A DNA stretch of 64,000 nt, taken from assembly GCA_020746835.1 (NCBI GenBank), contig JAGPNK010000017.1, positions 186,001 to 250,000 of the forward strand. The letters run 5' to 3'. Below the pieces are notes generated by a model, which ran no database searches, was not told the DNA's origin, and was given only the letters and a program-made list of their open reading frames with translations. Below, piece after piece: positions 27,701 to 56,074 of the stretch (the first letter of the stretch is position 1; each line of letters opens with the position of its first letter). This DNA comes from Stachybotrys elegans (taxonomy: Eukaryota > Ascomycota > Sordariomycetes > Hypocreales > Stachybotryaceae). The translations under genes and the position numbers were made by a program.

Positions 27701-28011
27701 AGTGTGTTGGAGGCACGGACTCCATTTGGTGGTTCCGTTTGATGGATGGAAAAAGGGTTGGACAACGAATTGCTATCGGCGATGGGGTTTTAACAACGGG
27801 GATTTATTATTATGTGTTATTCGACAAATGTTGGGAGTTTGCATTTTGAGAATGAAAAAGGAGTTTTCAAGTTGACTTCAATCACGAATACACCGATTCA
27901 CTAATTTTGACTGTTCCGTTCCATCTTTGTCGTGTTGTGTCCTTCCCATGTCGGCAACCGCATGTCGTAGTGGTAAAGGTTGTTCTTTTGTCCATCCTGG
28001 TCCTTTTATCC
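27701..28011. other. Convergent intergenic region
   Basis: About 0.3 kb between the 3' ends of the F-box-like gene and the minus-strand orphan gene. Nothing recognised. Confidence 0.4.
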
Positions 28012-28794
28012 CTAAGATAGCGTAGACGATGACGAGCTGGACGTAGTTCCTCGTCTCGACCTCCAGAAACAGAGCCTCCTCACCCATCTCAACCCAAAGA
28101 TCCTCTGCTTTCGAGTCCTTTTACCCGCAACGAATTCCCACATTGGAACAGTACGCGATGAACGTATGTCAGCGATCGGAGCGTGGCAGTGACATGAGCA
28201 ACAGTTACAGCAGGCCTTTGTCTTTATCGGTGCTCGTAATGGCCGTGGTGCTGGCGGTGGTGTGCCGATTTGGTTAAGGGGGTCACTTTTGATGGAGAGA
28301 TCGACGGCCAGCAGATATGTTTCCGCAAAGTTGGTGGGCACAGTTGAGATCTGAATCATGCGAGACCCGGTCATATAGCAGAGCCTTTGAACCATTATAC
28401 CGAGGCTCTTGTCATCCTCGCCGTGGTTCAAGGGGTCCCAGGTAAACAGCTGCCCGCTCATTTGTTTAATGCTGCAGAGAATAGCATATATCTTCTCTAC
28501 TGGAGGCATTTCAAGATCGGAAACAAGAGACGCGAAGCGACCAGCCTCTAGGACCTTGCCTTGGTATGGTCTGAATTTCTGGCTCAGGCGACACAGACGC
28601 CATGCCAAAGAATGCCAGTTTGGCTCGAGAAGCGCGTCGGGGGATGTACAGGACATGTGACCTTCGAGCACCTGGGTGCGCTGGTGAAGACGCTCGAGTG
28701 TGACAGTGGCATCGGCTTCGGAGGGAAGTGGAATTCCCTGGGAGCCTTCGAGGTGGGCGACCACGCCGGCACAGGATAGCTGAGACATTGCCAT
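28012..28794 (-). CDS. Hypothetical protein, unrecognised, with Cys/His-rich patch
   Basis: An uninterrupted frame of 260 codons from an ATG at 28794. The first 165 residues are a regular mixed-composition region without a family I recognise. Around residues 198-208 a run of Cys and His (ACCNCCSCHCHAP) appears, then a basic Arg-rich tail ending in Ser repeats. The change in composition after about residue 170 could mean that an intron or a frame exit occurs there and that the tail is not translated. Neighbours give no hint of role. I call it a probable gene because codon use resembles adjacent exons, but the model may be wrong. Confidence 0.5.
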   Translation of the reverse strand: MAMSQLSCAGVVAHLEGSQGIPLPSEADATVTLERLHQRTQVLEGHMSCTSPDALLEPNWHSLAWRLCRLSQKFRPYQGKVLEAGRFASLVSDLEMPPVEKIYAILCSIKQMSGQLFTWDPLNHGEDDKSLGIMVQRLCYMTGSRMIQISTVPTNFAETYLLAVDLSIKSDPLNQIGTPPPAPRPLRAPIKTKACCNCCSCHCHAPIADIRSSRTVPMWEFVAGKRTRKQRIFGLRWVRRLCFWRSRRGTTSSSSSSTLS

Positions 28795-29642
28795 TGAGAT
28801 GCTGCCGAGTGTAGAAACTCTGTAGGATGAGGAGAGAATGAATTGCGGTGTCTGTCTCTAGAAATATTTATGCTCCTTGAGCAGATGCATGTCAGACGGA
28901 CCGGTGAGAGGCTGCACGGGGTAGTCGTACGTGTCTGGCAACCTTTTCGCATAACCATATCTCTCTGCTGCAGCTCACTATGCATATCAGACATTGTAAG
29001 CAATACTAGACAACCCCATTCGTGCGTCCGCCTCACTTTACAAAGTATGTGCATTAGTGGCACGACGCGAGGTCGTAACGTCCAATCACTGCATATCTGC
29101 ATGCACGAATTGTCAGAAGGCGGGCCAACAGACGACTCATTCGGCTATAGAGAGGAGATGGAAACGGTTGGGGCGCGTGCATAACCGACGTCCTCAAGTG
29201 TCACCGGCAGGACACTGTCACGAATCAAGACAGAATATTTTGTTGGTCCAGCACGTCTGCTGGACGTAGACCGGGGACATATGAAATGCACCTCTCTGCG
29301 GGGAAGATGCTTGACCAATGGCAAAGATGAAGCGGTAGAGGGGCAATCTATCTTTGTTACATCCAAAGTGGTCCAGACTGTGGCGGCAGGTATTCTGTCT
29401 TCCTGTGCGGCTTGGGCGAACCACTCAAGGCGGTAAGGCGCTGGGAATGTTGTGGGCATAGCATTTATCGTACCCCATCGCTTCTGCTTTGCAGAGCCCC
29501 ATTTTTATGCAAGTCAAATAGGTGTTTGGTCCGGCCTGTGATAGTGTTCAGAACAGCCATTCCCCCAGCAATCAATAGACCAAGACGTATTCATATAACT
29601 CAAAGTTCATTTCTTCTCATCATCGTTGTTCCATACATGTCC
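28795..29642. other. Intergenic region, nothing recognised
   Basis: About 0.85 kb between the orphan gene and the carbonic anhydrase 3' end. Frames on both strands are short and unconvincing. Confidence 0.45.
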
Positions 29643-30237
29643 TTACGCCTCAACTTTGGTAAGCTTGCCCGTGTTTACGTCAAAGACGTAGCCAGTAATG
29701 GGCACATCCAGAACCAGTGGATTCTTCTTCAAGGCCACGACATCTTCTGCCACGCTCTTCTCCAGGTCTGAGAAAGACAGCCAGGCAATGTGGTCGGCAT
29801 TCTCTCCGAGATCCGACTTGACCTTGGCATGCAGCTCGTGGTCCTTAAAAGTGAGCATGCCGCAGTCGGTCTGTGAATTTATTAGCAGGCCATATCCATG
29901 TTGTGGGATAGTGAAAGGCTTACGTGGTGGATAACGACGATTTCGCGGGTGCCCAGAAGCTGCTGGGAGATGACGATGTCACGGATCGCTGCGATGCCAC
30001 GTCCTCCAGCGTTGCGAACGACGTGCGCGTCGCCCTTGGATAGACCGAGTTCCTTTGCAGGGTCGACTCGGGCATCCATGCAAGCTACCACAAGAACCTT
30101 GCTGAACCAGCGTGAACGAGTATTCCCAAGAAGCCGGCGAAGAGTGCTTACCGAGCGGGTGGCATGGGCAGACCACCTTCATTGAAGGTGGCGGCATACT
30201 TCTCGTTGGCGGCCTCGAACTCTTGGGCAACAGTCAT
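29643..30237 (-). CDS. Beta-class carbonic anhydrase
   Basis: Three exons, 30237-30152, 30101-29924 and 29870-29643 (introns of 50 and 53 bp), encode 163 residues. Zinc ligands are all present: Cys36 in ACMDAR with the Asp38-Arg40 dyad, His88 and Cys91 in HHTDCGM. The short length fits the small fungal beta-CA subgroup. It interconverts CO2 and bicarbonate in the cytosol. It lies 484 bp from the MFS gene bordering the isocyanide-synthase block; isocyanide formation involves decarboxylation in related enzymes, so the proximity could matter, but such genes are also common housekeeping genes. Confidence 0.93.
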
Positions 30238-30720
30238 GCTGGGCAGGATAATTGATGATGGATAGGTGCGAGATTGGAGAATAACAAATGGTGTCGAGTA
30301 ATTATCTTGGAGACACCACTGGGTACTTATAGTACTATCAAGGCTGATCTCGATGCTGCTGGTTATGGTTCATCTGAGACGGCTGAAACACTCAAGTTGC
30401 AATAATGCGGGGAACTTTCGCCATTCCGTACGTTCCGGATTGGGTACGCGAGGATCTGATCACACTTTGAGTTAGTCTGCCCCTTGTTATGCCAAGGAGG
30501 CAATCCTGACAGAAGCTGATAAGCATTAATCTGGAGATGGTGTGTTTGAGAGGAGGCATGGGGTCAAGTTTATCTATGATTGAGTAGGTCGTGCAGTGAG
30601 GGAAAGGGAACAATAGTGTATACGAACAATGATGGTGGCCCTGCTACCTGTAGGACCAAAGAACAGAGTTAAGCTATTAATATATAACACTTTAAAAGAA
30701 TGAAATATCATTTCATAGGC
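30238..30720. other. Intergenic region
   Basis: Upstream region of the carbonic anhydrase and 3' flank of the MFS gene; no gene or repeat recognised. Confidence 0.4.
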
Positions 30721-32146
30721 TTATACCACGTGTTTTATCGTCCATCCAACCTTGGTAGTACGAGCCAATGCTTGTATCCAAGCCCCAATCAAAAGAACAG
30801 TGCCGGCCCAAATCCAAGCAGCGTCGTAGCCCAACCTGTCAAGTAATGCGCCAGCGATTGGAGGACCGAATAGATTCGCTATGGAGAACAGTGCAAATGC
30901 CATGCCAAATCGTGTCCCAATCGTGGCTGGATTAGATGTTGACCTCGCAATGACAGTGGGAAGAAGGGCAAAAAATGTGCCTGCAAAGAAACCGTAAAAA
31001 ACGATTACTACCAGCAAGCGTGCAGTGGACGTAGCTGCCATTAAGGACAAACCTGTTATACCCAAAAGCATTGCTGTGATTGTGACCATGTTCATAGCAC
31101 CCAGCTTCGGAGCCGCCATCATCGGCAGGATACGTCCCAGGATAGAACTAGAGTTCAGGATAGCCAGGAGGTAAAAGGCAAATCCCTCTTCGACAATCTT
31201 CTCACTCAATGCATAGCTCTGGCCGAAGGTAAATGGCGTATACAGGCCTAAGAAGACAACAAAACAGCCCATCACAAATAGTACGTATGGCCAATCTGTA
31301 AAGGCCGTACGGTCAACCAGAGAACGCCTCTTTTGCTGGCCAGATGGGTTACGTGGTCGGAGCACCACATTCGCAACAACCAGAAGAACGAATAATATGA
31401 GAGCAACGACTCTCACCGACCAACGTAGCCCGATCTGGTTGTTCAGTCGTCTGACGACGATTGGGAGTATCACACTACGCCGTTTTTTTAGTACACAAGT
31501 GAAAAAAGCGTACTCTCCAACTACTTACCCACCAAGGCCACTGCCTGAAGCCGCGATGCCATTTGCAATGGGGAGCTGAGTAGTAAACCATTGCGATGGG
31601 ATTGCGACCGACGGAATGTTTAGACAGCCCGCACCAATCCCAACCAGAACGCCTTGGCTTAGAAGGAATTGCCAAAGATTCGTACAGAAGCTCTGTGCAA
31701 GAGTTCCGACGACGACGAAGACGGATCCCACAGTGAGCAGGGTTCGACAATAGCCAGAATCAAATATCGGACCGGTTAAGAAGCTCAGAAAAACCATCAA
31801 GAAGATCTGAAGTGACCCTATTATGGATATCTCAAATTGACCATGCGCACTTAGCACCCCAGTCTCGTAGATTGCCTGGAAGGTGCCGAAGCTTGATACC
31901 AAACCTATCATCATCTGTGAGCACATAGCCTTGGGCTTTTAAATGACCCATATAGCAGCGATGCTTACCCCATGTATTGAAGTACAGGCAGAAGCTGCCA
32001 GCAATTTGTAACCAAGCCTGGAAACCGCCATTTGGTTGAGCAGAAAGCAAGGAGGGAGTTGTTGGAGTAGCCGTAGGAGATTCGAGCAGGCCTGGATCCG
32101 CAGCTGGCGAGGGGACGCTGACCTTTTCCCCAACAGAAGCCGCCAT
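30721..32146 (-). CDS. MFS permease, monocarboxylate-transporter (MCT) type
   Basis: Three exons, 32146-31969, 31904-31529 and 31474-30721, encode 435 residues. A Pro/Ser-rich cytosolic leader (about 1-40) precedes twelve likely membrane helices with the MCT-type pattern (GGFQAWLQIAGSF at helix 1, LVSSFGTFQAIYE, GIGAGCLNIPS and a mid-protein cytosolic loop rich in Arg/Lys near 250-265). It should move a small organic acid or metabolite across the plasma or vacuole membrane. It is on the same strand as the isocyanide synthase and 616 bp downstream of its stop, so it is a candidate exporter for that cluster. The upstream acceptor at 31905 is chosen over an earlier AG because only it keeps frame. 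Confidence 0.9.
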
Positions 32147-32762
32147 CTAGACGGCGCCACTCTGGAATATGATGGCAAGTTTCTTATACTTGCTTACTTA
32201 TTGCGATACTTCTTTGCTGTATTCGAAGTTGGGGATAGCTTATTTGGACAGAGATATAGGAAGCGTTGCCGAGGTTGTTTAGTGGAATGGAGTGGACGGC
32301 AACTTGGCGCAGGCATATAGCATTATTAAATATACAGATTGTTCTAGGAAAGTCCAGGGCTTATCAATCAAAAAGGGGAAGGTGGGTAGAGAAGAGTGGC
32401 CCTGTCCACATTGGATGACGGCTTTGCCAGCGGCACTTGGAAGCCCCTGAAATTAACAGGGCAACCTTGAGAATATGATGGCAACTAAAGTGGATAGATG
32501 ACCGAGATACTCCGTACTCCGTATTCGATCAACAGTTTTGCTCCATCGATAATACTACGTCATGCTCTTACTTGCGATAATGGCAAGGTAACAGGCATGC
32601 TCGTTACAATCTAGAGATGCAGTATTACGAGGAAGACTAACCACTGATCCCTCCGGCCACCATGGCTTCCTTCATGTGGAGCGATCCCAAGGGACTTAAT
32701 CATGTAGCGGAAATCGGGTTAACTTCTCTAGATGCTAACATACAATACTCGTGTCAAGCTCC
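32147..32762. other. Intergenic region inside the isocyanide cluster
   Basis: 0.6 kb between the 3' end of the isocyanide synthase and the start of the MFS gene, so it probably holds the MFS promoter. A tandem TACTCCG run at 32508-32523 is listed as a repeat motif; no gene is seen. Confidence 0.5.
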
Positions 32763-34895
32763 TCAATCAAAATGAATCCTCCATAGTTCTCTGTCGCAAC
32801 CTGCAGTAAAGTCACTCCGCGTGTGCATCGTCAGGATGTTATCGCTGATGACGAGATCACCCTTGTGCCAAGCGTGGTAATACGCAACTCGCCGGTCATG
32901 GAGTACTGAGTCGATGGCTCCACAGATGGACGAGCTCTCGGCCTCACTTAGTCCATCGATAGTGACATCCGTTGGGTCGAATTTCGTTCTTGACTGCGGC
33001 CATGGTTCGTGATATCTCAAACATGGCTGCTTTGTAGTGGGGTGCGGCACGACGAGCTGCAGGCCTTTCATGTGCGAACTGTCAAAGGATGGCGTAGAAA
33101 CCGACCAGGTCATGGTAGATAGCTTATCCATCGGCAGCCACGATGGGAGATGCTTGGATACCATGGTTGAGGACGAGAATAGAGTAAACCCGGTATTTTG
33201 TGGCGATGCCGTTACCCCTGCGAAAAATTGAAAGCTATCACAAGTTAGACTTACATGCCGTTGACATGCCATGGAAAGGGAAGATGAAACCTACCGAGGG
33301 GGCACGGGGACGGTACGTTCCTGTCCGCCTTCGTCCAGTTGTTTTACCGTCTTGAAGAGACCATCAAAGTGGAATGGCATCCATTCCGCAGACAGGACAT
33401 TGTTCAGACCACGGCTATCAAGGCCTTGATCTTTGACTTCCAAGACCAAGCCGAATTTCCAAGGCAATGGGGTGCCAAACTCTTCGGCTTTCTTGACAAA
33501 TAGCTCGCGGTTGCGCACGTTTCCAAATCCACGCAGTATCACCGGAGAGTTGTGTTCTGACAAGGCCCGGACCTTTGCGGCATCCACATCTTCAATCGTC
33601 ATGCTACCTACTCCGGCGGCTGGCCGAACGATCAGACCGCAGGGGTAGACAGGCTCGACGAGAATCCCGCCCTTTTCTTGACTCCAGTCAAACAAATCCG
33701 ACTTCTCTCGATAATAGCTCGGTCGTCCGTCTTCATAAACAAGCTCCATGCTATCATCTTGGTCGAAGGTGCGACGCTTGCCGGTGGTGATGGTGCCGTC
33801 CAGTCTGAAAGCAACACTGCAATGCCAGGGCGTTGTGTAAATGCTATCCGTAGGTAGCAGGCCGATGGAAAGCTTTGAAGAACCAGTTGATGGATGAATC
33901 GAAAGGCGAACATGGTCCTTGAACACGTGGCCAACAGCACTGGCAAAGGCCTGTCATAGGTCAGTAAGCAGCAAGACGGCGAAAAAATCATGGGTAACCA
34001 ACATCACCGCGAGCAATCATTTGCTTAGCAATGTACTCGATTCCTCTCTTGTACTTGCTCTTGGAACGGTCTTCGCCCTGAGGAAATACTTCTTCCAGAT
34101 CCGTTTCGAGAAACTTGATGTAGCCCCGGTACGTCAAGCAAACGTCTTCGCTTTTTATTGTTTCCTTCCAGTCCCAGTTTGGTCGGCTAAAGGTGTTGAG
34201 TAGCGCGCGGCGGAAGTTGGATGCGTTAGCAGTATATGTCATTTCGTCCAATTCGTCAGGCAACGGTATCGATACTAAATCACGAAGCCGTGAAAATGAT
34301 ATACAACTCAAGCCCTTGGATTGTGCCATCGCTCTGAGGGCCTCGCCGTACGCCCAAACATCCTTATCGGGGACCGCCAGAAGATCTACAAAGGAGTCAG
34401 AACGTATCCTATATTGTGAAAGCCTAACAAATCATTACCATTGTAGACGAGGCCGTCAGAAATGATTGTCAAGGTTGCTCCGGGACTGTAAACGTCCCCG
34501 ATAGCCTGGCAAAGTCCATTCAGATGGGCAAGTGCGAGAGCCTCTCCCCTATCCGGTAATTTGCCCAAAACTTTTGACTTGGAGTTGGGTGACTTGAATG
34601 GAAAGGCAGGCAGACACATTGGCACAGGGCGTTGCGCCTTGACATGCATGTAGATCAATGACAGAAACTTGAGTGCCCCTACATCGGCTTGGGGAGGGAC
34701 GCCAGCAACCTTGCCAATGCGGTAACGATCAATGATATGCAGAATAGTCGAAGCCTTTTGCAGAGCTTCGTTGTCGACTGTGCTTGTCAGTAGCCCCGAG
34801 GGCACTGACAGTGTTGGGGTATTTTGAGATTCAGTGGCATGCTTCTTGGGAAAGCCAGGAGCCGCAAGAGGCTCGCTTTCCACGATAGACGGCAT
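32763..34895 (-). CDS. Isocyanide synthase (DIT1/PvcA) fused to TauD-type Fe/2-oxoglutarate dioxygenase
   Basis: Four exons, 34895-34439, 34385-34003, 33950-33295 and 33234-32763, join in frame to 655 residues. The N-terminal DIT1/PvcA domain shows PAFPFKSPNS at 96-105, LPDRGEAL at 113-120, the ISDG motif at 145-148 and RLSIHPS at 295-301. The C-terminal half is a TauD/PvcB-like dioxygenase with iron ligands HFD (His474, Asp476) and a distal His636, plus Arg residues at 647 and 651 that could hold 2-oxoglutarate. Family enzymes turn the amino group of an aromatic or other amino acid into an isocyanide, and the partner dioxygenase desaturates or decarboxylates it. The two-domain fusion is known in fungi. 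The start at 34895 has a good context (ACCATGC); an in-frame upstream ATG would add 63 residues. The last intron has a clear GTAGGT donor. Confidence 0.93.
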
Positions 34896-35856
34896 GGTCA
34901 CGATTCGTTCCGTTCGCGACAAAGAAGGAACAGTGCAATGACGTGCTGTGAGCAAGATTTTGTTGACTAACGGATACGTATAAGGTTTGTCTTCATGAAC
35001 GGGGGAGCAGGCTGTTCTTGCATCTTTAGACATGTAACGACTTGATTCACATGACCAAGTCTTTTGACCCTCCTGTCCTCCCACCTATACCGATCAATGC
35101 AAGCCCACGTAATTCGTCTGCGCTCGACTTTCCCAACAGAGATGATCAAGTTCAACTCATCCTGGTCTTAGAGTGTGGAAAGGGGGGGATCCATCTCCTC
35201 CTGATGCATTATGCTAGTTAGGGTTACATCGGTGCATATGTCATGAGACTTGACTTGGAAGAGCATCATCGAAACAGGGATACTGTTCGTAAGAACATGA
35301 CCTTGACGTGATAGCTGGTTTGTAATCCAGGGATAAGTCAAAACGTTAATGACTCCACTGATCATATCAGGCCCGAATACAGTTATGACCGAGCGGCAAG
35401 GCACAATGCTATGTACTAGGGACCGGACCACTCGAGAGTCCACTCATAATTTACTTGAAGCAGGTGCCCAATCATGGCTTGATATTTCAGTAGAAAAAAT
35501 CGTTCCTGGCATGAGAAGGTCTTGGCTGTGGGGAAATGACCCTCCCGTCGGCCAGCTCCGCGGCTCTCGAGTGGGAGTTGCCTTCCTTGTTGATCGCACA
35601 CACAGGGTACGCGCGGGCTGCGAGAGATGTCGAGTATTCCTCCGTGCAGGTTTCTTTACTCAAGTCATCCCTGGAAGGATTGCTGCGGGTCATTTGATCA
35701 ATCAGATACGGAAGGTCGTTGTAACATCCCACTTGCGAAGCCGGGATATCTTACAAATGACCTAGGCCGGCTAGACTCGACCAGATGATATCTCTTGTCC
35801 GTCCTCGGGCAACGTTACCTTTCTGTACTCGTCGTTTCTCTCAACAACAGCTCAAT
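34896..35856. promoter_or_regulatory. Divergent promoter region, isocyanide synthase / FAD monooxygenase
   Basis: About 0.96 kb separates two divergent starts of likely cluster genes, so it may work as a shared control region. I could not identify an unequivocal transcription-factor site. The right half, near 35630-35700, is ordinary sequence without a gene. Confidence 0.45.
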
Positions 35857-37686
35857 ATGGGTTCCTTAATGTCTACGTCAAGCGAGAATATCCGAGAGGT
35901 TGATGTCGCCATTGTAGGAGGTCTGTTTGCCCTTTGCGTGTTGTCTGGTTCCTTAACTTACATTGTCATAGGTGGACCTACTGGGCTATTCACCGGTCTA
36001 CTTCTACACCGGCTAGGGGTATCAGTATGCATTCTCGGTATTTGCCCTCCTTGAGGCCTCCTACTCGCGACACAGCTAACCATTATCAGATGCGAAAGCG
36101 GGAAGTCTTGATCTCGGCCGAGCGGATGCGCTCAATGCACGCACTCAGCAATACCTGGAAGTAGCAGGTCTCCTAGATGAATTACTGCCCTTGGGTCTCA
36201 AGTGTAACAGTAAGTTGGGAGACACTTGTATTGCTTGAGACGAAGTCTAATATCTGTCAGCAAGCTCTACGTTCGCTGATGGCGAGTTCAAGTCTCGCCA
36301 GAATAAGTGGTGGGTAGGAATCGAGCATGCTCTTCACAAGAATTTCCTCATGATTGGCCAGCCTGTCATCGAGGCTATGCTAAACAGCCGTCTTAAGGGT
36401 CTGGTATATCATGGCCAAGATGTTGTGAATGTCGCGGAAGATGAGGAGCACGTCCATGTCACAACATCCACGGGTTTCAAGGTACGGAGCAAGTACCTCT
36501 TAGCAGCGGACGGTGCACGATCCTTCGTTCGAAATGCCTTAGGAATCGACTTTACTGGTACAAAGCCAGAGATGCTGTGGGCAGTATTAGACACTTTCAT
36601 AGAGTCTGATTTTCCTGTCTGTCCTGAAATTATCACATTTCAGGCACATGGCCAATCTCGCGTGTCATGGATTCCACGAGAGAGAGGCCTGTCCCGCTTC
36701 TATGTGCTCTTAGAAGGCGAGGTGTCTCAGAAACGAGCCGAGGAGTCCATCAAGAAGCACATGGCACCACACTCGGTGGAATTCAAGCAGACAGAATGGT
36801 ACAGCACATTTGATGGTGAGTTATCCCAAACCTACGCAGCCTTCTGTTACTTACTCGAGTCCAGTCAAGGAACGTATCGCATCTTCTTTCATCTCCAAGA
36901 ACGGCAATGGTCGCGTACTTCTTGCCGGGGATGCAGCCCATGTCCATAGTGTCAATGGGGGGCAAGGACTCAACACTGGTCTTTCAGATGCCTTTGCACT
37001 AGCGTGGAGATTGGCCATGGTCACAAAGCACGATCTACCAGAAGCTGCATCCAAGAAGTTGATACAAAGCTATGATTTGGAACGTCGTACTACAGCTAAA
37101 AATGTTATTGATGTCGCAGCAGCTCTTGTCAGAGATACCATGAGGGAGGCCAAGGAGTACGTGGCCACTATAGAGCGAAACGCAGGTTACATCACAGGTA
37201 AGTTTCACCGTCCGGTGCTACCCATTATTCATCTCTGACGATGATATCCCAGGAATGGGTGTCTCATACGAAGGACTGAATTCTCCTCTCGTCAAAGAGT
37301 CATCATATTCGTTTTGGACTGCTGGTGCTCGATGTCCCGACGTTGTCGTTACTGGTTCTGAACAACCCGGCCCTTCTTGGCTCTATTCTCATGTTGAGTA
37401 TGGGAAATTCATTGTCTTATCTATTGGACAAGTGCCGCATCCATATATGAAGTACCAGCACGTGCTTCAATTCATCAGCATCTTTGCATCACCTCCAGAG
37501 GGAAGCAACAACCCCGCTCAAGGAGAGGACAGAGACACACATAGCCTGTCTGGAAAGATGTTTAGAGCTGATTGGGTTTTGCCAGAGGATAATTATATTA
37601 TAGTTATCAGGCCCGATATGTACATAGGGTATATTGCGACTTGTGAGCAGGGCTGGCAAGACTATATTGCTAGTATATGTGTGTAA
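35857..37686 (+). CDS. FAD-dependent aromatic hydroxylase (phenol 2-monooxygenase-like)
   Basis: Six exons, 35857-35920, 35972-36037, 36090-36209, 36261-36815, 36865-37197 and 37253-37686, join to 523 residues, with introns of 49-55 bp. The Rossmann FAD site GGGPTG is at 21-26, the second FAD motif GDAAH at 290-294 followed by NGGQGLNTGLSDAFAL, and the C-terminal thioredoxin-like region ends near RPDMYIGY. These are hallmarks of the flavin hydroxylases that add an OH to phenols with NADPH and O2. An alternative start at 35785 would add a 24-residue Arg/Gln-rich leader that could be a mitochondrial presequence or leader. It lies divergent to the isocyanide synthase and is a strong candidate tailoring enzyme. 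Confidence 0.91.
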
Positions 37687-37871
37687 CCATTATTGTCGGG
37701 TGATTCCGACGATCCCTTCATCCTTTGGCTCTGTTCTTTGGTCCTGCGGGCAGTAGGGCCACTGTCATTGTTCGCATACACACTTGTTCTTTTTCCCTCA
37801 CTGCATGCATCTACTCTATCATGAATCATAAGATAGACTCAGCTCCCATGTTCCATCGCTATGGCTTGATT

Positions 37872-39409
37872 CTACTCCTGGTGAAAAGCAGCATTGCTGG
37901 TCTTGGGATGCGGAACCAAAAGCCAGCTTACGCCCGTGGCGGCGAGCACCCCAACAAGGATGGGCTGCAGAATGGCAACTCCAGATCGGGAGGCAATGAC
38001 GCCCGTGATAATCGGCAAGGCTGAGCCTCCCATCTGCGCGACCACGAATATCAGAGCAAGCGCTGTAGAATGAATCTCTTGTGAGAAGAGCTTGGATCCG
38101 ACCGACATGCCCTGCACTCATCAGCAAATACCCACGGAACTTCATGGGCGAGGAACGTCTTACTGTTGCGAAAAGAGGTCCAGTAAAGAAGCCAATGAAA
38201 CTGATAGCAACCGAGGCAGCAATGATGTTCGGAACACTAAACATTGTTAGCACGTGCCCCGTCAACCAAGGAAACAGACTCACAGCCAGAAGACCAGTTG
38301 TAGCGCCACAGCGAGCAGGATGTAGATGAAAACCATCCGTCGCTCTCCGAAGCGATACGTCGGCTCGGCCAGCAGCAGCCGACCAAGAAAGCAGCCACCA
38401 CTGAAGCCTGCTGGGACGTAACCCATCTGAGACAGGTTACCGCCGCGAACTTCGACCAAATACTGCGTCACCCATCCGCTGGCAGTCAGGGCAGCTCCGA
38501 TGTAGAAGAAGTAGAACATGCTGAGTAGCCATACACTGGGCGTTTTGATGGTTTTCTTCATCAATGTGAGGGCATTCTTGTTGCGGGACGCGGCAGCATC
38601 ATCACCAGCCGGAGCGTGTGCGGCATCTTCGACATTCGCATTCGACTTGTTGTCATGAAAGCGCACAGTGTCGCGAAACGCGACAAGACACCATGCCAGA
38701 TTTACGATACCAATACCCAGCGGAAAGATGTAGAACAGGTACCACTGGGAGACCTCCCCAGCCGAGGCAATCGGTGTGGCGACGAACGGCCCGACCAAGC
38801 AGCCCGCCATATACATGGCATGAATCAGGGCGAGCCACCGGTGCGCGCCCTTGACTCCGGCGACGTACGTGTTGGCGTGCGCGTCCTGGAATGCCTGCCC
38901 GACGCTGACGATCCAGAAGGTCGCCACGAAGAGGCCAAAGGGCGGGTTCCAGGCGCGGAGGGTCTGAGCGACGACCTGGAAAAAGGCACCGAGGGCGAGC
39001 ATGGCGCCCAGGTCGAGATATTGGCTCAAGTGCGTGTTTGCGATGGCCGCAAAGAACCATCCAAAGAAGTTGGCGCCGTAGCTGCGGCAGTGTTAGTCGT
39101 CTGCGCATGGTGCGAGAGGGAGATGTCTTACATGCTGGACACGATAGCTTCGCTAATGTTGTACTCGCGCAGCATGTAGGGGATGAGGGCGCCGATGCTG
39201 CCGTCACTCACGCCGGCGACGAAGAAGGAGAATGCAGCGCTCATGAGCCTGAGCACCGTGGCCCTGTCCATCCCTTGGCCATGATTTTCCCCTTCATCGG
39301 CCTGCGCTGTCGGATCCGAGGCGACCCTCTCATTTCGAGTCTCGGGGTCATTGAGAGGCTTGAGCCTGATGGCCTCTGCGGGCGCCGTCTGCGTGACTGT
39401 TGTGGACAT
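37872..39409 (-). CDS. MFS permease (BSC6-like)
   Basis: Four exons, 39409-39132, 39081-38284, 38236-38164 and 38111-37872 (introns of 47-52 bp), encode 462 residues. A charged leader (about 1-50) precedes twelve predicted helices, with the loop between helices 6 and 7 rich in Asp/Ala/Asn (about 240-262). The sequence pattern resembles the BSC6-type family. It converges with the flavin hydroxylase, 185 bp apart, and closes the isocyanide block as a second candidate transporter. The third exon is only 73 bp. Substrate is unknown; uptake or efflux cannot be told from sequence. Confidence 0.88.
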
Positions 39410-40142
39410 GGCGGGGGCGGCTCAATGGGAGAAGCTTGGCTACACGCTTGGCGTGAGGTGTGCCGTCGCAAAAAATTGTCGGTGACGAAGGGTAGCAGAC
39501 CGTGTTATATCATTGATGAACGGTGGATCTGGGTGCCCCGGGAATTGAGAATCTGCGGAGAAACAGGGGAAGCGGACCGAGTCGCCAAAACCTCGCCAGC
39601 ATATCGGATTTACCGAGGCATATGACATATTCCTTGCTTGCGCGCAGATCTTGTTGTGGGGTGTCAATGCCTGTTACTCAGTCATGGGATCCAGATACAA
39701 TCAATTCCAGCTTACTCTCCGAGATAACAGTCCTAATCTTACGATCACGTATTTCTGGCCAAGCACCTTCGCTCAGCCTCGTCAGAACAACATGTAAGGG
39801 CGACAAGCGGTACCTATACACATCAAGCAGAGTCTGCTGACCATAGGGCTTCTGGCTACATACAAATATAGTGTTACATATTTGTTGTTTCTTTCTACTG
39901 TTTACGACTGCGTTGGTTGCCGGGGCACTCACTAGGCACCACCTCTACTGTTTATTTGCTCTGTACTGCTTGCACCTCACACTGTACACTCTTTTCATCA
40001 TCACAGTGTTACATACTTTCTTATCACGTAAATCTCTTGATGTGATAGGGTCTTTATCGTCAGAGGGGCCTCTTCGAAATCACTGATCACTATCCCGTTG
40101 GGGCACAAAATCGGGAAATCCCACACACTTTAGATCTATTTT
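39410..40142. other. Intergenic region, cluster edge
   Basis: 0.7 kb between the MFS start and the NLR 3' end; AT-rich in its second half, no gene, RNA or repeat recognised. Confidence 0.45.
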
Positions 40143-42605
40143 CTAAAAAGGTGACGTTAAGAAGTCATTGCCTAGAGCATGGCTTAGCGATAGCACCGGT
40201 GGCCTATAATCGGGCTGTGGCGTGTGTCGAGAGACATACGCCGTCATGTTTACCTCCAAGGCAAGTGCGAGGAGAAAGTTCCCAATACCATGCTCGCTGA
40301 TCTGATGCGATGGTCTCGTTGGATCCAACCCCGGTCCCTTCACCTCTTCGGAAACAAGGATCTGTGTCATTCGCTTTAGCAACGGAAAGCTCCATTCAAC
40401 ATCTTGCTCGTCCACCGCCACACAACACCTGATCGCATGCTCCCTAAATGGAGGCAAATGAATGTTCGGCTTCGCATACCATAGATACATTGACATGAAG
40501 CTTATGGCTGCCATCGCATTAAACCGTGCGTCGTGGATGGCAAGACAGTCAAGCTCCCAAATACCAGGTAAACTGAGAAACTCAAACACCGTTCGATGCA
40601 TAAAGACGATGTGAGACTTCTCTTTGTTTTTCAGCAAGGTTGTGAGTTCCAGCAATCCGCCACAACGACTCCTGAGTCGTCCTTCAACACGGGGCAGAAT
40701 CTCATCCAGGTAGCCATGGGTAATAAGTTCAAAAGATGGAGCGTTCTCAAACTCCATACAGTATCTGTCCAGAATATCCCATGGACGGGCTAGCAGGTCG
40801 ACTCGCTCCCAGCCGTCGATTCGCTTACGGCTGGCGACTCGCTCCCTGCGGGCGAATTTATCACGCAAGTTGAGTCGCTCCGCGCCGCATTCATTGTAAT
40901 GAACTTGGTTCTGGTAGCAAATGCGAAGCATCTTTGCCGCATTTTGAGCGTACCTCGGCTCAACCTTCTTCAGCATGTGACGAAACATGTCTTCCAGCTC
41001 CTGTGGCAATTCGTCAACACGTTGCATAATTTCAGCGATCGTATCATACGCAGCGAAACCGTTCAGTACATTCCGGCAGGCGAGTATGACCCATAAAAAG
41101 ACACCGGCCGATTTCTCAACCAGTTGGTCGATTATGGACTGTGCGTTGTTAGGTTGGGAATGCTTCAGTTTCAGGAAATGATTGTGTGATCCGATCAAAT
41201 CTCCAACGTAAGCCTCAATGTCTGGTCTCGTGATGTCTTGGAGACGAATCTTGTGGTTGCTAGAGAAGGCATCGACACACAATGGCAAAGGCCTGCTGGA
41301 CAGCACAACCTTGATTCGATGGGTGCTGGCAAGGTTTTGGATGAAGGTTATGCCCTCTGACAATTTACCCTCATATTCATCGAGACCATCGATAAGGAAG
41401 CAAAAGTATTGCGGAAGCTCCATTCCGAGGAGAATCGTTAACGCGGATTGTAGCTCTGCATCGGTTGGCGGCAATAACTCAAGGTCATTTTCTTCCGTAT
41501 TGCAGGCGCATCCTTGCTTCCACATTCGAGGCAGGACTTTCGGTAAAAGAGAGCGGTTGTGCGTCAACAACTGATACAGAATGGCTCTGCAGAGGCCAGT
41601 ATGAGACTTTTGCTCCAGAGTTCCCAGGTTCCAGAAAAAGAAGGCGCCAAGAATAATAGAGTTGTCTCTCGCCCACTGCTGTAGCGTCGGGGATGTGTCG
41701 CTGTGGTGGAAGAGATACTTCATCAACGTGGATTTCCCACTGCCTGCCTTACCGGACACCCAGAATATGCCAGAACCAGAGGCCAACCACGACGATAAGT
41801 CTGAGTCTGGGGACAGAGCCCATCGGAATGTCTTCTGATGGGCTGCTGAGACGGCTTCCAGGCGATCGTCCATAGTGCGGAACCAGAGCCGCTCGAGAAT
41901 CCTTTTCTGTACCATCGTATCGAGTGGCTCTTTGGCTGGCCGAGAAATTCTGACCGGGGCATGAATCGGGACAATTTGTGTTGCTCTCAGCGCTCTGAGG
42001 TCTTTCAAGTGGGACAGTGTTTCTCTCAGCATGGTTTGTGTTATCTGTTCCGCGGCAGGATTGATGCTGGGGATCAGGTGATTGAGCTTGGCCACGAAAT
42101 TCGACAGTTCTTGCACCAGCTTTTCAAATTTGCCCTTGTCGTTGACCGCCCATCGGAATTTCTTACCCGAGCTGGTGTACTTCTGCCGGCCCTTGACGCG
42201 CAGTTGAAACGCGTGGAAGTACTTTCTGAATACCTCCATGTATTCTTGGCCAATCTGTGCCTTGACCACTTCCAGCGTGGCGGCGTTTTGAGGCGGTTGC
42301 TCCATGCCGTACCGCTCTTGGAAAATTGAGCCCTCGCCTAGCAAACTGTGAATATTTCCTAGTACGATAGAGACGGCATTTTGTGTCGCTGCGTCATCTA
42401 GGCGAGAGTCGTGGTCATGATAAAGCAGGCGAACGCGAGCGGCCCATTGAAGCAACAAAGTTTTCTCGACATCTAATCTTGCCGCCAGCACCTCGTAGTC
42501 GCGGCCAAGAGAACGATAGGACGTGAAATATGAGAAGAGTGTAACACAGTCATCAAATATTCCCACCAACGTGAGAATTCCGACTGCCAACCCAGCTGCC
42601 TCCAT
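40143..42605 (-). CDS. HeLo-NACHT NOD-like receptor (NLR-type) protein without repeat domain
   Basis: A single 820-codon frame from an ATG at 42605. Residues 1-205 match a HeLo (prion-inhibition and propagation) domain, starting with MEAAGLAVGILTLVG and having a hydrophobic helix. The NACHT NTPase follows: Walker A GKAGSGKST at 285-293 and Walker B FCFLIDGLDE at 401-410, then an extended helical region (about 570-800) that looks like the DUF7791-type C-terminal part. No ankyrin, WD or TPR repeats follow. Fungal HeLo-NACHT proteins act in allorecognition and programmed cell death. It lies next to the isocyanide block, with no cell-death partner such as a small HET-S-like gene seen beside it. 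Confidence 0.9.
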   Translation of the reverse strand: MEAAGLAVGILTLVGIFDDCVTLFSYFTSYRSLGRDYEVLAARLDVEKTLLLQWAARVRLLYHDHDSRLDDAATQNAVSIVLGNIHSLLGEGSIFQERYGMEQPPQNAATLEVVKAQIGQEYMEVFRKYFHAFQLRVKGRQKYTSSGKKFRWAVNDKGKFEKLVQELSNFVAKLNHLIPSINPAAEQITQTMLRETLSHLKDLRALRATQIVPIHAPVRISRPAKEPLDTMVQKRILERLWFRTMDDRLEAVSAAHQKTFRWALSPDSDLSSWLASGSGIFWVSGKAGSGKSTLMKYLFHHSDTSPTLQQWARDNSIILGAFFFWNLGTLEQKSHTGLCRAILYQLLTHNRSLLPKVLPRMWKQGCACNTEENDLELLPPTDAELQSALTILLGMELPQYFCFLIDGLDEYEGKLSEGITFIQNLASTHRIKVVLSSRPLPLCVDAFSSNHKIRLQDITRPDIEAYVGDLIGSHNHFLKLKHSQPNNAQSIIDQLVEKSAGVFLWVILACRNVLNGFAAYDTIAEIMQRVDELPQELEDMFRHMLKKVEPRYAQNAAKMLRICYQNQVHYNECGAERLNLRDKFARRERVASRKRIDGWERVDLLARPWDILDRYCMEFENAPSFELITHGYLDEILPRVEGRLRSRCGGLLELTTLLKNKEKSHIVFMHRTVFEFLSLPGIWELDCLAIHDARFNAMAAISFMSMYLWYAKPNIHLPPFREHAIRCCVAVDEQDVEWSFPLLKRMTQILVSEEVKGPGLDPTRPSHQISEHGIGNFLLALALEVNMTAYVSRHTPQPDYRPPVLSLSHALGNDFLTSPF

Positions 42606-47393: not shown

Positions 47394-47782
47394 GGCGTGC
47401 CTCAGCTGAGTGGTCGAGATAGTACGTATATCAGCAAGAACTATCTAAGCTGCTGGTTACTCGAAATGTACTCCCAAATTGGAGGCAGGAGATCCCAACC
47501 TGCGATTTTCATTCATGAAACGTTTGGTTTCCTGATACGTACCTACGAAGAAAACTAGAATTTGCGAGTCAACATGGGCAAATGTCGCATGACTCTGTCG
47601 TGAAAAATCCATGTCTTACCATGTAACGTAGTAGCTTCTGATCGACATGCTGCGGGGATTTACCAAGAAGGGCGTCATTGACATGTTCCCCTACTTGTAG
47701 CAGCTACACAACAACGTGCTCAATACAAAAATTGACGACATCGCAACCATCACCGGCGGAGTCTACGTACCCCAAACCCACC
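47394..47782. other. Intergenic region upstream of GFA protein
   Basis: About 0.4 kb; promoter of the GFA gene. No RNA gene or repeat recognised. Confidence 0.4.
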
Positions 47783-48388
47783 ATGGCTGAAGTCCAGCAG
47801 CAGCGTCGACCCTTTCATGGATCTTGCCATTGCGGCGCAGTCCGCTACCTGGTCTTCCTGAACATACCGCACCAGGCGCCCAAAGACAAGGGCAAGGAGC
47901 AACAGAACATCTATCGTTGCAATTGTACTGCTTGTCACAAGACCGGGATCTTTCATGTCCGCGTTCACTCTTCTCCTGACGACTTCCTCCTCCTCTCGCC
48001 GCAAGACCCCATGTCGGAGCTGGGCAACTACAAGTGCGGCGCATACCTCAACTTCTTCTTCTGTAAGACGTGCGCCGTCCGTCCCTTTACCTTTATGGGC
48101 GAGGGAGAAGTAATAGAGGTGGACTTGAGCAGTCTGGGTGTTTCGGGCGCAGAACCTGGCGTCAAGACCAAGGCATGGCGACCTAAAAAGGAGGGCTGGA
48201 TTGAGGGAAGAACTACCCACGGGTGCTACTTGAGCGTGAATGGCTACACGGTCGATGCTGGACAAGAAGGATTCGACTTGCGGGAGTGGAGTGAGAAGAA
48301 GCTTGTGGGATATGAGGATTACTTGCGCAGTGACTCAGATCGGCAGCCGATGAGTTGGGAGAGGCCATATCCTGGGGGTGCATACTGA
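47783..48388 (+). CDS. GFA/CENP-V domain protein (zinc-binding, glutathione-dependent-type)
   Basis: A single exon from the ATG at 47783 (context CACCATGG) encodes 201 residues. Zinc-binding Cys residues occur in the characteristic order: GSCHCGAV (Cys15, Cys17), CNCTACH (Cys46, Cys48, Cys51) and FFCKTCAVRP (Cys94, Cys97). This is the fold of glutathione-dependent formaldehyde-activating (GFA) and centromere protein V-like proteins. Most fungal members have no proven reaction, so I call only the fold. The frame also extends to 47678, but this ATG is the natural start. Confidence 0.9.
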   Translation: MAEVQQQRRPFHGSCHCGAVRYLVFLNIPHQAPKDKGKEQQNIYRCNCTACHKTGIFHVRVHSSPDDFLLLSPQDPMSELGNYKCGAYLNFFFCKTCAVRPFTFMGEGEVIEVDLSSLGVSGAEPGVKTKAWRPKKEGWIEGRTTHGCYLSVNGYTVDAGQEGFDLREWSEKKLVGYEDYLRSDSDRQPMSWERPYPGGAY

Positions 48389-48719: not shown

Positions 48720-48823
48720 GGGCGCATGGTTTAGTGGTATAACACTCCCTTAGCATGTTCCGGACAGCCGGATCATTCGTGATAATTTGGGAGAGGTCTG
48801 GGGTTCGATTCCCCATGTGTCCA
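48720..48823 (+). tRNA. tRNA-Ala(AGC) with intron
   Basis: A seven-pair acceptor stem (GGGCGCA with TGTGTCC, two G-U pairs) closes the molecule. The D loop has AGTGGTA; the anticodon stem CTCCC/GGGAG brackets TTAGCA, giving anticodon AGC, and an intron of about 32 nt (48764-48795) follows one base 3' of the anticodon. The T arm is perfect (TGGGG TTCGATT CCCCA). A T5 run at 48845-48849 fits an RNA polymerase III stop. The mature tRNA would be 72 nt before CCA addition. Confidence 0.85.
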
Positions 48824-54769: not shown

Positions 54770-55570
54770 CTAGGTATAAAACTGTCCGTAACGACCACCG
54801 GGGTTGAGCTCAAGCATCTCCAGGGACATGGTGTTAACAAACTCGTGCCCAAACCTCTTAAGACAGTAATGGGCAATCATGTCGATACCTAGATTCCCAT
54901 GTCAGCAAAGTCTCCGGTTCGTCATCAAATGGCACTCGTTTACACGAGTCAACAATAGCAACTTACCAGCTCCAGCTCCACCCGCAGTCCACAACTCGCC
55001 CTTCCTCCCATCCGTCCCCTCATACTCCTTCTCCTCCACCACCCATCGCTGGCGTAACCAATTCGTTCCGGGGTACATCTGTTTCGCCATGTCCAGGAAC
55101 TCCTTATTAGTCGTGCACGTCTTGCCCTCCAGCAGTCCCGTGCTCGCCAGCCATATGCTCCCGATGCACGTCGTCAGCCACACGGGCGTCTTGCTCCATG
55201 CCTCCTTCATGAACTTGTCCGCCTGCGGCGGGCGGTGGCTCGGCACCGGGCCGCCGATGAGCAAAATGTCCAGGTCGCGCGGGCAGTCGTCGTACGTGAC
55301 GGTGGGCACAAACTTGAAGCCGCCCAAGCTGTCTGAGCCGGGCTGCGGCGGCGTCATGAAGCTCGTCTCAAGAGTGGTGGCAATGTAGAAGAACTCGATA
55401 CTGACAGCGTGCGGGCCGAACTTGGCGTACTTCTGGTCAACCGAGATGACGCCCGAGACGTAGGAGTCCGAGAGGTTGCCGAAGATGTCGATGCCGGCGA
55501 TGTCGACGAGCTGGACTTCCTCGAGCATCACGCCGATGCGGAGCTTCTTGGGGTTGTTGAGAGTGGACAT
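54770..55570 (-). CDS. DJ-1/PfpI-family protein (isonitrile-hydratase-like superfamily)
   Basis: Two exons, 55570-54967 and 54888-54770 (78-bp intron), encode 240 residues. The class-I glutamine-amidotransferase-like fold is shown by LLIGGPVPSH (about 103-112) and the nucleophile elbow TTCIGS with Cys135 followed by the GLLEGKTCTTN segment. The C-terminal exon adds the conserved helix GIDMIAHYCLKRFG. Fungal members are mostly of unknown function; bacterial isonitrile hydratase (InhA) belongs to this superfamily. It lies about 15 kb from the isocyanide block, so a link is only a hypothesis. A TATA box is 95 bp upstream. Confidence 0.9.
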
Positions 55571-55664
55571 ATTGGGGCTGGAGGTTTTGTTTAAAAGTTG
55601 CTGGATGGCTTTCGGTTTGTTTGAATCCGCAGTTTGAGATGACAGAGGGGCGAGTGCCTCTGCC

Positions 55665-55670
55665 TTTATA
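55665..55670 (-). promoter_or_regulatory. TATA box of the DJ-1/PfpI gene
   Basis: TATAAA on the minus strand, 95 bp upstream of the ATG at 55570. Confidence 0.5.
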
Positions 55671-55874
55671 CCATGTTGGCAGCCATTTCCCCTCCAGGTC
55701 GATAACTTGATTCCTAAGCTGGTCCCGGACATGCTCGGAGACGCGTATGAACCAACGTGTGCACCAAGCAACCGGAAGCCATTTTGATGCGCCAGAAAGA
55801 CCGGTGTCTTCAATCCAGTGGTATACCTGCGTGATCCTTGCTGGCTTGAATCTGAGATCCCATCTCCCCTCCTT

Positions 55875-56074
55875 CCGATGCTTGTCGGATGTTAATGTAG
55901 ATGGAGGGGAGGGCGTGGCTGGCTTACCAAGCGACTCAAGTGAACATAAGGACGGCAAAAGATTCCCCCTCCCTCCGACAAGCATCGGAAGTTAATGTGG
56001 AGGGAAGGGAGTGGCCGGCTAACGAAGCAACTCAAGCGAACACAAGTACAGCAAAAGATTTCCCCGCAGAAAAC
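55875..56074. repeat. Imperfect 100-bp tandem duplication with inverted stem element
   Basis: Two units begin at 55875 and 55975. Each opens with a 14-bp stem-loop sequence, CCGATGCTTGTCGG in the first copy and its exact reverse complement CCGACAAGCATCGG in the second. After this, the units align (TTAATGTRGA/GGGA, AGTGGCYGGCT, AACAYAAG, GCAAAAGATTYCCC) with several substitutions. So the spacer is inverted while the rest is in direct orientation, as if the palindrome had flipped after duplication. Confidence 0.75.

Follow-up and report, generated by a model that had tools for sequence, protein, structure and literature searches.

We analysed a stretch of 64,000 nucleotides from the genome of Stachybotrys elegans (43.4 Mb), here called the window, which covers bases 186001-250000 of contig C9 and holds a compact locus built around an isocyanide synthase (ICS). 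The locus runs from 30721, where the stop codon of its first gene ends, to the start codon of its last at 39409, and its four genes, which were spliced by hand, are all intact once spliced. The central gene (32763..34895, minus strand) encodes 655 amino acids in four exons (34439-34895, 34003-34385, 33295-33950 and 32763-33234), with an ICS domain at residues 81-350 fused to a TauD dioxygenase domain at residues 401-652, both found with Pfam. Divergent from it, on the plus strand, lies a class A flavin hydroxylase (flavin monooxygenase, FMO; 35857..37686) of 523 amino acids and six exons (35857-35920, 35972-36037, 36090-36209, 36261-36815, 36865-37197 and 37253-37686), and the 961 bases between the two start codons (34896..35856) are presumed to be a shared promoter. 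A transporter gene of the major facilitator superfamily (MFS) stands at each end, both on the minus strand: MFS1 (30721..32146; 435 amino acids; exons 31969-32146, 31529-31904 and 30721-31474) and MFS2 (37872..39409; 462 amino acids; exons 39132-39409, 38284-39081, 38164-38236 and 37872-38111), the latter a probable bystander. Pfam MFS_1 is matched by two reading frames of MFS1 and one of MFS2. An earlier reading of this DNA, the original prediction, had placed four genes here within 8.7 kb, among them an ICS fused to a dioxygenase and, divergent from it, a phenol-hydroxylase-like flavoenzyme, and the gene models and Pfam domains bear this out (DIT1_PvcA and TauD in one protein, FAD_binding_3 in the other). 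It had also called the locus free of cytochrome P450 and nonribosomal peptide synthetase (NRPS) genes; judged by eye, none was seen among the open reading frames (ORFs) of at least 100 amino acids in 28000-42000, where the Pfam scan covered the four genes and a flanking NOD-like receptor (NLR) gene.

The predicted ICS protein is 100% identical to the S. elegans protein on record (P0001) across 94% of its length, and the two differ only at the N-terminus, which is different and shorter in the record. One ICS intron has the unusual donor GTTGGT; P0001 is joined at this same point. In P0121, the recorded FMO, the 51 bases of intron 1 are left in and read as 17 additional residues.

Both halves of the fusion exceed the Pfam cut-offs (DIT1_PvcA E 3.7e-99, TauD E 4.1e-23), and by Pfam and fold the protein has the backbone of the fungal ICS-TauD type, DIT1_PvcA followed by TauD. 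The structure of P0001 resembles PIsnA and PIsnB, and the best fold matches of the ICS are the tyrosine enzymes PIsnA and PvcA. In NCBIfam it matches L-tyrosine isonitrile synthase alone, scoring 133 bits where the cut-off is 600. The original prediction had named a loss of activity residues in the synthase as a sign against it; in the fused TauD the metal ligands are intact (H474, D476 and H636). A published rule assigns product type from positions 107 and 188 in PIsnB numbering (PMC9467999): enzymes of the PIsnB type, which form vinyl isonitriles, combine the metal-binding H, D and H with K or R at 107 and N or H at 188, and those of the PvcB type, which form isocyanoacrylates, have L and C. 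The S. elegans TauD has K480 and H574 there, the PIsnB-type pattern and not that of PvcB, and both positions forecast a vinyl isonitrile.

The flavoenzyme matches FAD_binding_3 with E 1.3e-63 (215.8 bits), and the structural model of an ortholog aligns with phenol hydroxylase 1foh across 494 residues, so that domain and whole-length fold agree on a class A, phenol hydroxylase-like monooxygenase. Among known structures the ortholog is most like VibO, an FMO that forms oxepinones, and phenol hydroxylase also matches.

The ICS and FMO genes are found together in many fungi. Relatives of each were taken from a restricted candidate set, 120 of 637 being listed for ICS and 120 of 7944 for FMO (118 with a contig), and a contig was counted as shared when its size was equal, to the base, in the two lists. 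By this measure at least 42 of the 120 ICS rows have a listed FMO row on their contig, the number being a lower bound because each row represents a 90% cluster, and eight of the shared contigs are shorter than 60 kb. The 42 include Fusarium, Neonectria, Hirsutella, Tolypocladium, Cordyceps and Metarhizium, and also Trichoderma, Colletotrichum, Verticillium, Hypoxylon and Daldinia. Fifteen ICS-FMO pairs carry consecutive locus tags (e.g. AK830_g6625/g6626, FSARC_3815/3814 and HIM_03823/03824); 12 of them fall within the 42 and three (ACHAP8, FVEN and JX265) outside. ICS and FMO distances over the 42 pairs are correlated (r 0.889), and none of 2000 permutations gave a value as high. In a tree of 65 of the 120 listed ICS rows, including 28 of the 42 linked ones, S. 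elegans stands beside Paramyrothecium, and the rows from Hypocreales group largely by family. Tree and correlation fit a mostly vertical, joint descent, though shared species history alone would give some correlation. Linkage is scattered over the tree, with 17 changes against a shuffled mean of 21.2, but it was scored for the listed representatives only, and an unlabelled row is not the same as an unlinked one.

A scan of prokaryote genomes with an FMO alignment retained 80 relatives of 580, and an ICS match is present in exactly three of the 80, which are the three best-scoring loci: a Bacteriovoracia metagenome-assembled genome (MAG), a Legionella MAG and Aquimarina, with FMOs 38-40% identical. 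A fourth near relative, from Silvanigrella (L025), is 42% identical along one segment; its locus is fragmentary and shows no ICS. The three complete FMOs score 852-914 bits in the NCBIfam family PRK07190, and a search for this family gave 23 positive genomes out of 140 in the Legionella MAG's order and two out of 199 in Aquimarina's family, the starting genomes counted. Homologs of pvcA and pvcB lie directly upstream of the FMO in 23 of 24 loci, a set that leaves out three further PRK07190 matches from the search of the Legionella MAG's order; the exception, L095, is the same fragment as L025. Of the operon TauD proteins eight were checked; all eight have R at position 107, and at 188 six have N and one has C, while one gave no pattern match. 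These operons resemble the fungal locus in having an ICS, an iron/2-oxoglutarate (Fe/2OG) dioxygenase and an FMO of sister lineages side by side. They differ from it, in the Legionella order, the Aquimarina family and the Bacteriovoracia MAG alike, in that the genes are separate and the ICS and TauD are of the bacterial branch, and also in a divergent LysR gene (L012 and L013) and an ATP-grasp gene downstream (L013).

In the S. elegans genome the best match to PRK07190 is the cluster FMO, with 212.6 bits for its main exon and 131.7 for the next gene. In phmmer searches it scores 326-354 bits against seven operon FMOs of the family, whereas fifteen other bacterial FMOs and nine fragments of S. 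elegans paralogs reach 138 at best. A tree of 11 of 22 operon, 12 fungal and 25 of 73 other rows sets the fungal and operon FMOs apart from the other bacterial ones with support 100/100, the program warning of long branches and uneven composition. Because FMO and ICS are linked in fungi and pvcA, pvcB and FMO form operons in bacteria, this FMO lineage is tied to isonitrile synthesis in both kingdoms.

Whether the transporters belong to the same unit can be read from relatives as well. MFS1 orthologs are merged into one gene model with ICS in P0032 (Paramyrothecium) and with FMO in P0127, P0193, P0203 and P0216 (one Dactylonectria, two F. oxysporum and one other Fusarium); the MFS half of all five matches MFS1 with 48-64% identity over the main pieces, and none matches MFS2 at E 1e-5. 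These five merged models place MFS1 beside ICS in one lineage and beside FMO in others. The original prediction had asked for conserved synteny in relatives, and the ICS-FMO pairing is indeed kept there, with MFS1 tied to it through the merged models. Its cluster with two transporters is borne out in half: MFS1 belongs to a conserved trio, likely as the exporter, and MFS2 has only its physical adjacency in S. elegans to speak for it. Among the 120 listed relatives of MFS2 (of 677) only that of S. elegans itself lies on any of the 42 ICS-FMO contigs, and since the other 119 lie elsewhere we rejected MFS2 as a member and regard it as probably a bystander, outside the pathway. Species such as Cladobotryum mycophilum, Paramyrothecium foliicola and Tolypocladium paradoxum have the ICS-FMO pair on one contig and MFS2 on another. 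A row named S. chartarum (P0242) occurs among the MFS2 relatives, and no row so named is among the listed ICS or FMO relatives. As judged from these gene neighbourhoods, the grouping of ICS, FMO and MFS1 exceeds chance and that of MFS2 does not, the conserved unit consists of three genes, not four, and a four-gene cluster with two transporters seems highly improbable to us.

For these three genes we infer the substrate, the order of the steps, the site of hydroxylation, the export and the biological role. The ICS domain would convert L-tyrosine to tyrosine isonitrile, and the fused TauD would remove CO2 and introduce a double bond, which gives 4-hydroxystyryl (vinyl) isonitrile. The divergent FMO would then hydroxylate the phenol ring, probably in the ortho position, to a catechol vinyl isonitrile, and MFS1 would carry this out of the cell. 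We consider it reasonably probable, taken as a whole, that this is a three-gene isocyanide pathway from tyrosine to an exported catechol vinyl isonitrile, kept together across many Sordariomycetes. The original prediction had guessed at a hydroxylated vinyl isonitrile derived from tyrosine, a guess that gains weight because of the selectivity residues of TauD and the bacterial pvcA-pvcB-FMO operons, and a ring-hydroxylated tyrosine vinyl isonitrile is the likely product. It could also be that the FMO rearranges, expands or contracts the phenol ring, so that an oxepinone-like or cyclopentenyl isonitrile is formed and not a catechol. The match to VibO would suit this, and Trichoderma is known to make isonitriles, cyclopentenyl isonitriles among them; we find such a ring rearrangement unlikely. 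Another possibility is that the ICS uses some other amino acid, or that the product is N-formylated or otherwise altered, and that the FMO acts elsewhere. In fungi the ICS CrmA builds its isocyanide from valine (PMC9381783), and Dit1 leads to N-formyl tyrosine (PMC13005658), but the tyrosine enzymes are the best fold matches and L-tyrosine isonitrile synthase, far below its cut-off, the sole NCBIfam match, and we think such a pathway improbable.

We hypothesize, tentatively and with less than even confidence, that the ICS, the Fe/2OG desaturase and the FMO form one functional set in fungi and bacteria, that this FMO lineage is dedicated to tyrosine-derived vinyl isonitriles, and that it yields a catechol vinyl isonitrile, which may inhibit tyrosinase or phenoloxidase. 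Several points weigh against the three-gene pathway, and the valine substrate of CrmA is one of them. The selectivity rule is a forecast, and single changes failed to switch products according to its authors (PMC9467999). A fungal FMO ortholog (P0124) reaches 401 bits against the equivalog model PRK07190 (NCBIfam NF005531), under its cut-off of 530, and the fungal FMO is a sister lineage of that family, not a member. The grouping of fungal and operon FMOs persists but falls to 58/26 when fragmentary S. elegans paralogs are added (seven of nine fragments, two shorter than 250 residues being dropped, with 7 operon, 8 fungal and 15 other rows). Furthermore, the ICS and TauD trees (32 and 29 rows) split by kingdom and show no special tie to the FMO-type operons; one row in them, L120, was labelled as a glycosyltransferase locus by its likeness to L121, no glycosyltransferase being visible in L120, the sequence of which ends early. 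With both trees split by kingdom, the idea that the set passed as a whole from one kingdom to the other is not supported.

If the hypothesis is true, the product joins a copper-binding isonitrile to a ring like that of 3,4-dihydroxyphenylalanine (DOPA) and could plausibly block tyrosinase or phenoloxidase; it would be kept by Sordariomycetes that are associated with insects, plants and fungi. A catechol vinyl isonitrile would also mean that one chemistry, well matched to copper enzymes, is present in two kingdoms. Tyrosinase and insect phenoloxidase are inhibited by low nanomolar concentrations of rhabduscin, itself a vinyl isonitrile (PMC6386379), and from this we infer that the product may act on copper enzymes, phenoloxidase among them. 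The bacterial operons also point to the substrate of the FMO, and the set lends itself to a direct test with two purified enzymes.

Among known systems, paerucumarin (pvcABCD) and rhabduscin (isnAB-GT) share the order of tyrosine isonitrile, Fe/2OG desaturation and tailoring. The L and C of the PvcB type are absent from the S. elegans TauD, PvcC and PvcD are hydroxylases of a different family from the cluster FMO, and the rhabduscin pathway uses a glycosyltransferase. The xan cluster of Aspergillus fumigatus has an ICS-TauD backbone (XanB) and a transporter like the present locus, but a P450 and an isocyanide-hydratase-like gene stand beside its ICS (PMC5974471); in the 8.7 kb of S. elegans, and by eye among the ORFs of 28000-42000, neither was seen, and an FMO is found instead. 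In the crm type the ICS is fused to NRPS-like domains, whereas this protein has only DIT1_PvcA and TauD. ICS-TauD clusters that include MFS genes have been described and tallied in a survey of 3,800 ICS clusters (Nickles et al. 2023, PMC10153163), and they agree with the locus in backbone, small size and an MFS gene; the broad Ascomycota distribution of gene cluster family GCF 6 resembles the spread of the ICS-FMO locus. Unlike the locus, the survey has no mention of a FAD hydroxylase that we saw, and 'monooxygenase' occurs 0 times in its main text. The locus is a conserved variant of a known ICS-TauD cluster type with an unusual tailoring enzyme. The original prediction did not recognise it as a described cluster, which holds only in part: the ICS-FMO pair is widespread and very probably lies within the Nickles survey, but neither the pairing, nor its product, nor the bacterial match was listed in searches of openly licensed papers. 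The new and testable part is the two-kingdom partnership of the FMO with isonitrile synthesis.

Bacterial ICS loci of other kinds exist as well. No such FMO lies within a flank of about 1.5 kb in six of them (L116 and L118-L122); three (L116, L118 and L119) have a P450-like ORF, and L121 has a glycosyltransferase-like ORF (by eye). The TauD of L116, L118 and L119 has H and A at the selectivity positions, the pattern of neither PIsnB nor PvcB. A P450 is reported always to accompany isnAB in Legionella (PMC5126622), and the FMO operons look like a second type beside it. In the operon of the Legionella MAG the gene after the FMO is of the ATP-grasp type (L013 7459-8718, Pfam), and a similar ORF follows the Silvanigrella fragment (L025 6306-7532, by eye), which suggests a further tailoring step in bacteria.

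The original prediction had also suggested looking for co-expression under copper or nitrogen stress. Regulator words were counted in two promoters, 1,577 bases together, and compared with window totals, with no formal test. TGCTCA occurs once, with about 1.2 expected from 47 in the window; this site (34949-34954, just upstream of the ICS start) fits the Mac1 consensus of F. oxysporum by eye, and a lone site of this kind is at chance level. The word TTTGCTCA is found 0 times in the promoters and 3 times in the window, GCGTC 0 and 158 times, TTTGCTC once of 15, and GATAA four times with about 2.2 expected from 91. The ICS/FMO gap and the region upstream of MFS1 have no word of 10 bases or more in common. 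Table 1 of a study on Mac1-dependent copper-starvation genes in F. oxysporum lists no FAD monooxygenase (PMC11563359). Copper control of the cluster thus found no support, Mac1-like sites being no more frequent in the promoters than expected, which leaves room for weaker effects.

A second Trichoderma group of ICS-TauD proteins (P0089, P0091 and P0100) clusters with Onygenales rows from Uncinocarpus (P0103) and Ophidiomyces (P0106) with support 100/100, and none of these rows is on a contig with a listed FMO. This group is a candidate source of the Trichoderma isonitriles and a candidate case of horizontal transfer. In S. elegans itself, two tandem ICS genes, apparently with no TauD domain (by eye), lie on contig C5 at about 642-645 kb (L011 3490-6805), with an MFS gene nearby (L011 1004-2199), and resemble a two-ICS cluster family described in the Nickles survey. 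Each of these two ICS loci, the tandem pair and the cluster, has a DJ-1/PfpI gene, of the superfamily of isocyanide hydratases, at a distance of about 20 kb (window 54905-55891, minus strand; C5:665129-665707); the superfamily has 11 matches in the genome, and this nearness, spotted post hoc, is possibly due to chance. The locus is adjoined by an NLR-like gene that combines HeLo, NACHT-type and DUF7791 domains (40146-42605, minus strand), and the flanks further hold a carbonic-anhydrase-like gene (29643-30238, minus strand; by eye), a GFA-domain protein (47645-48385, plus strand) and a tRNA (48720-48823, plus strand).
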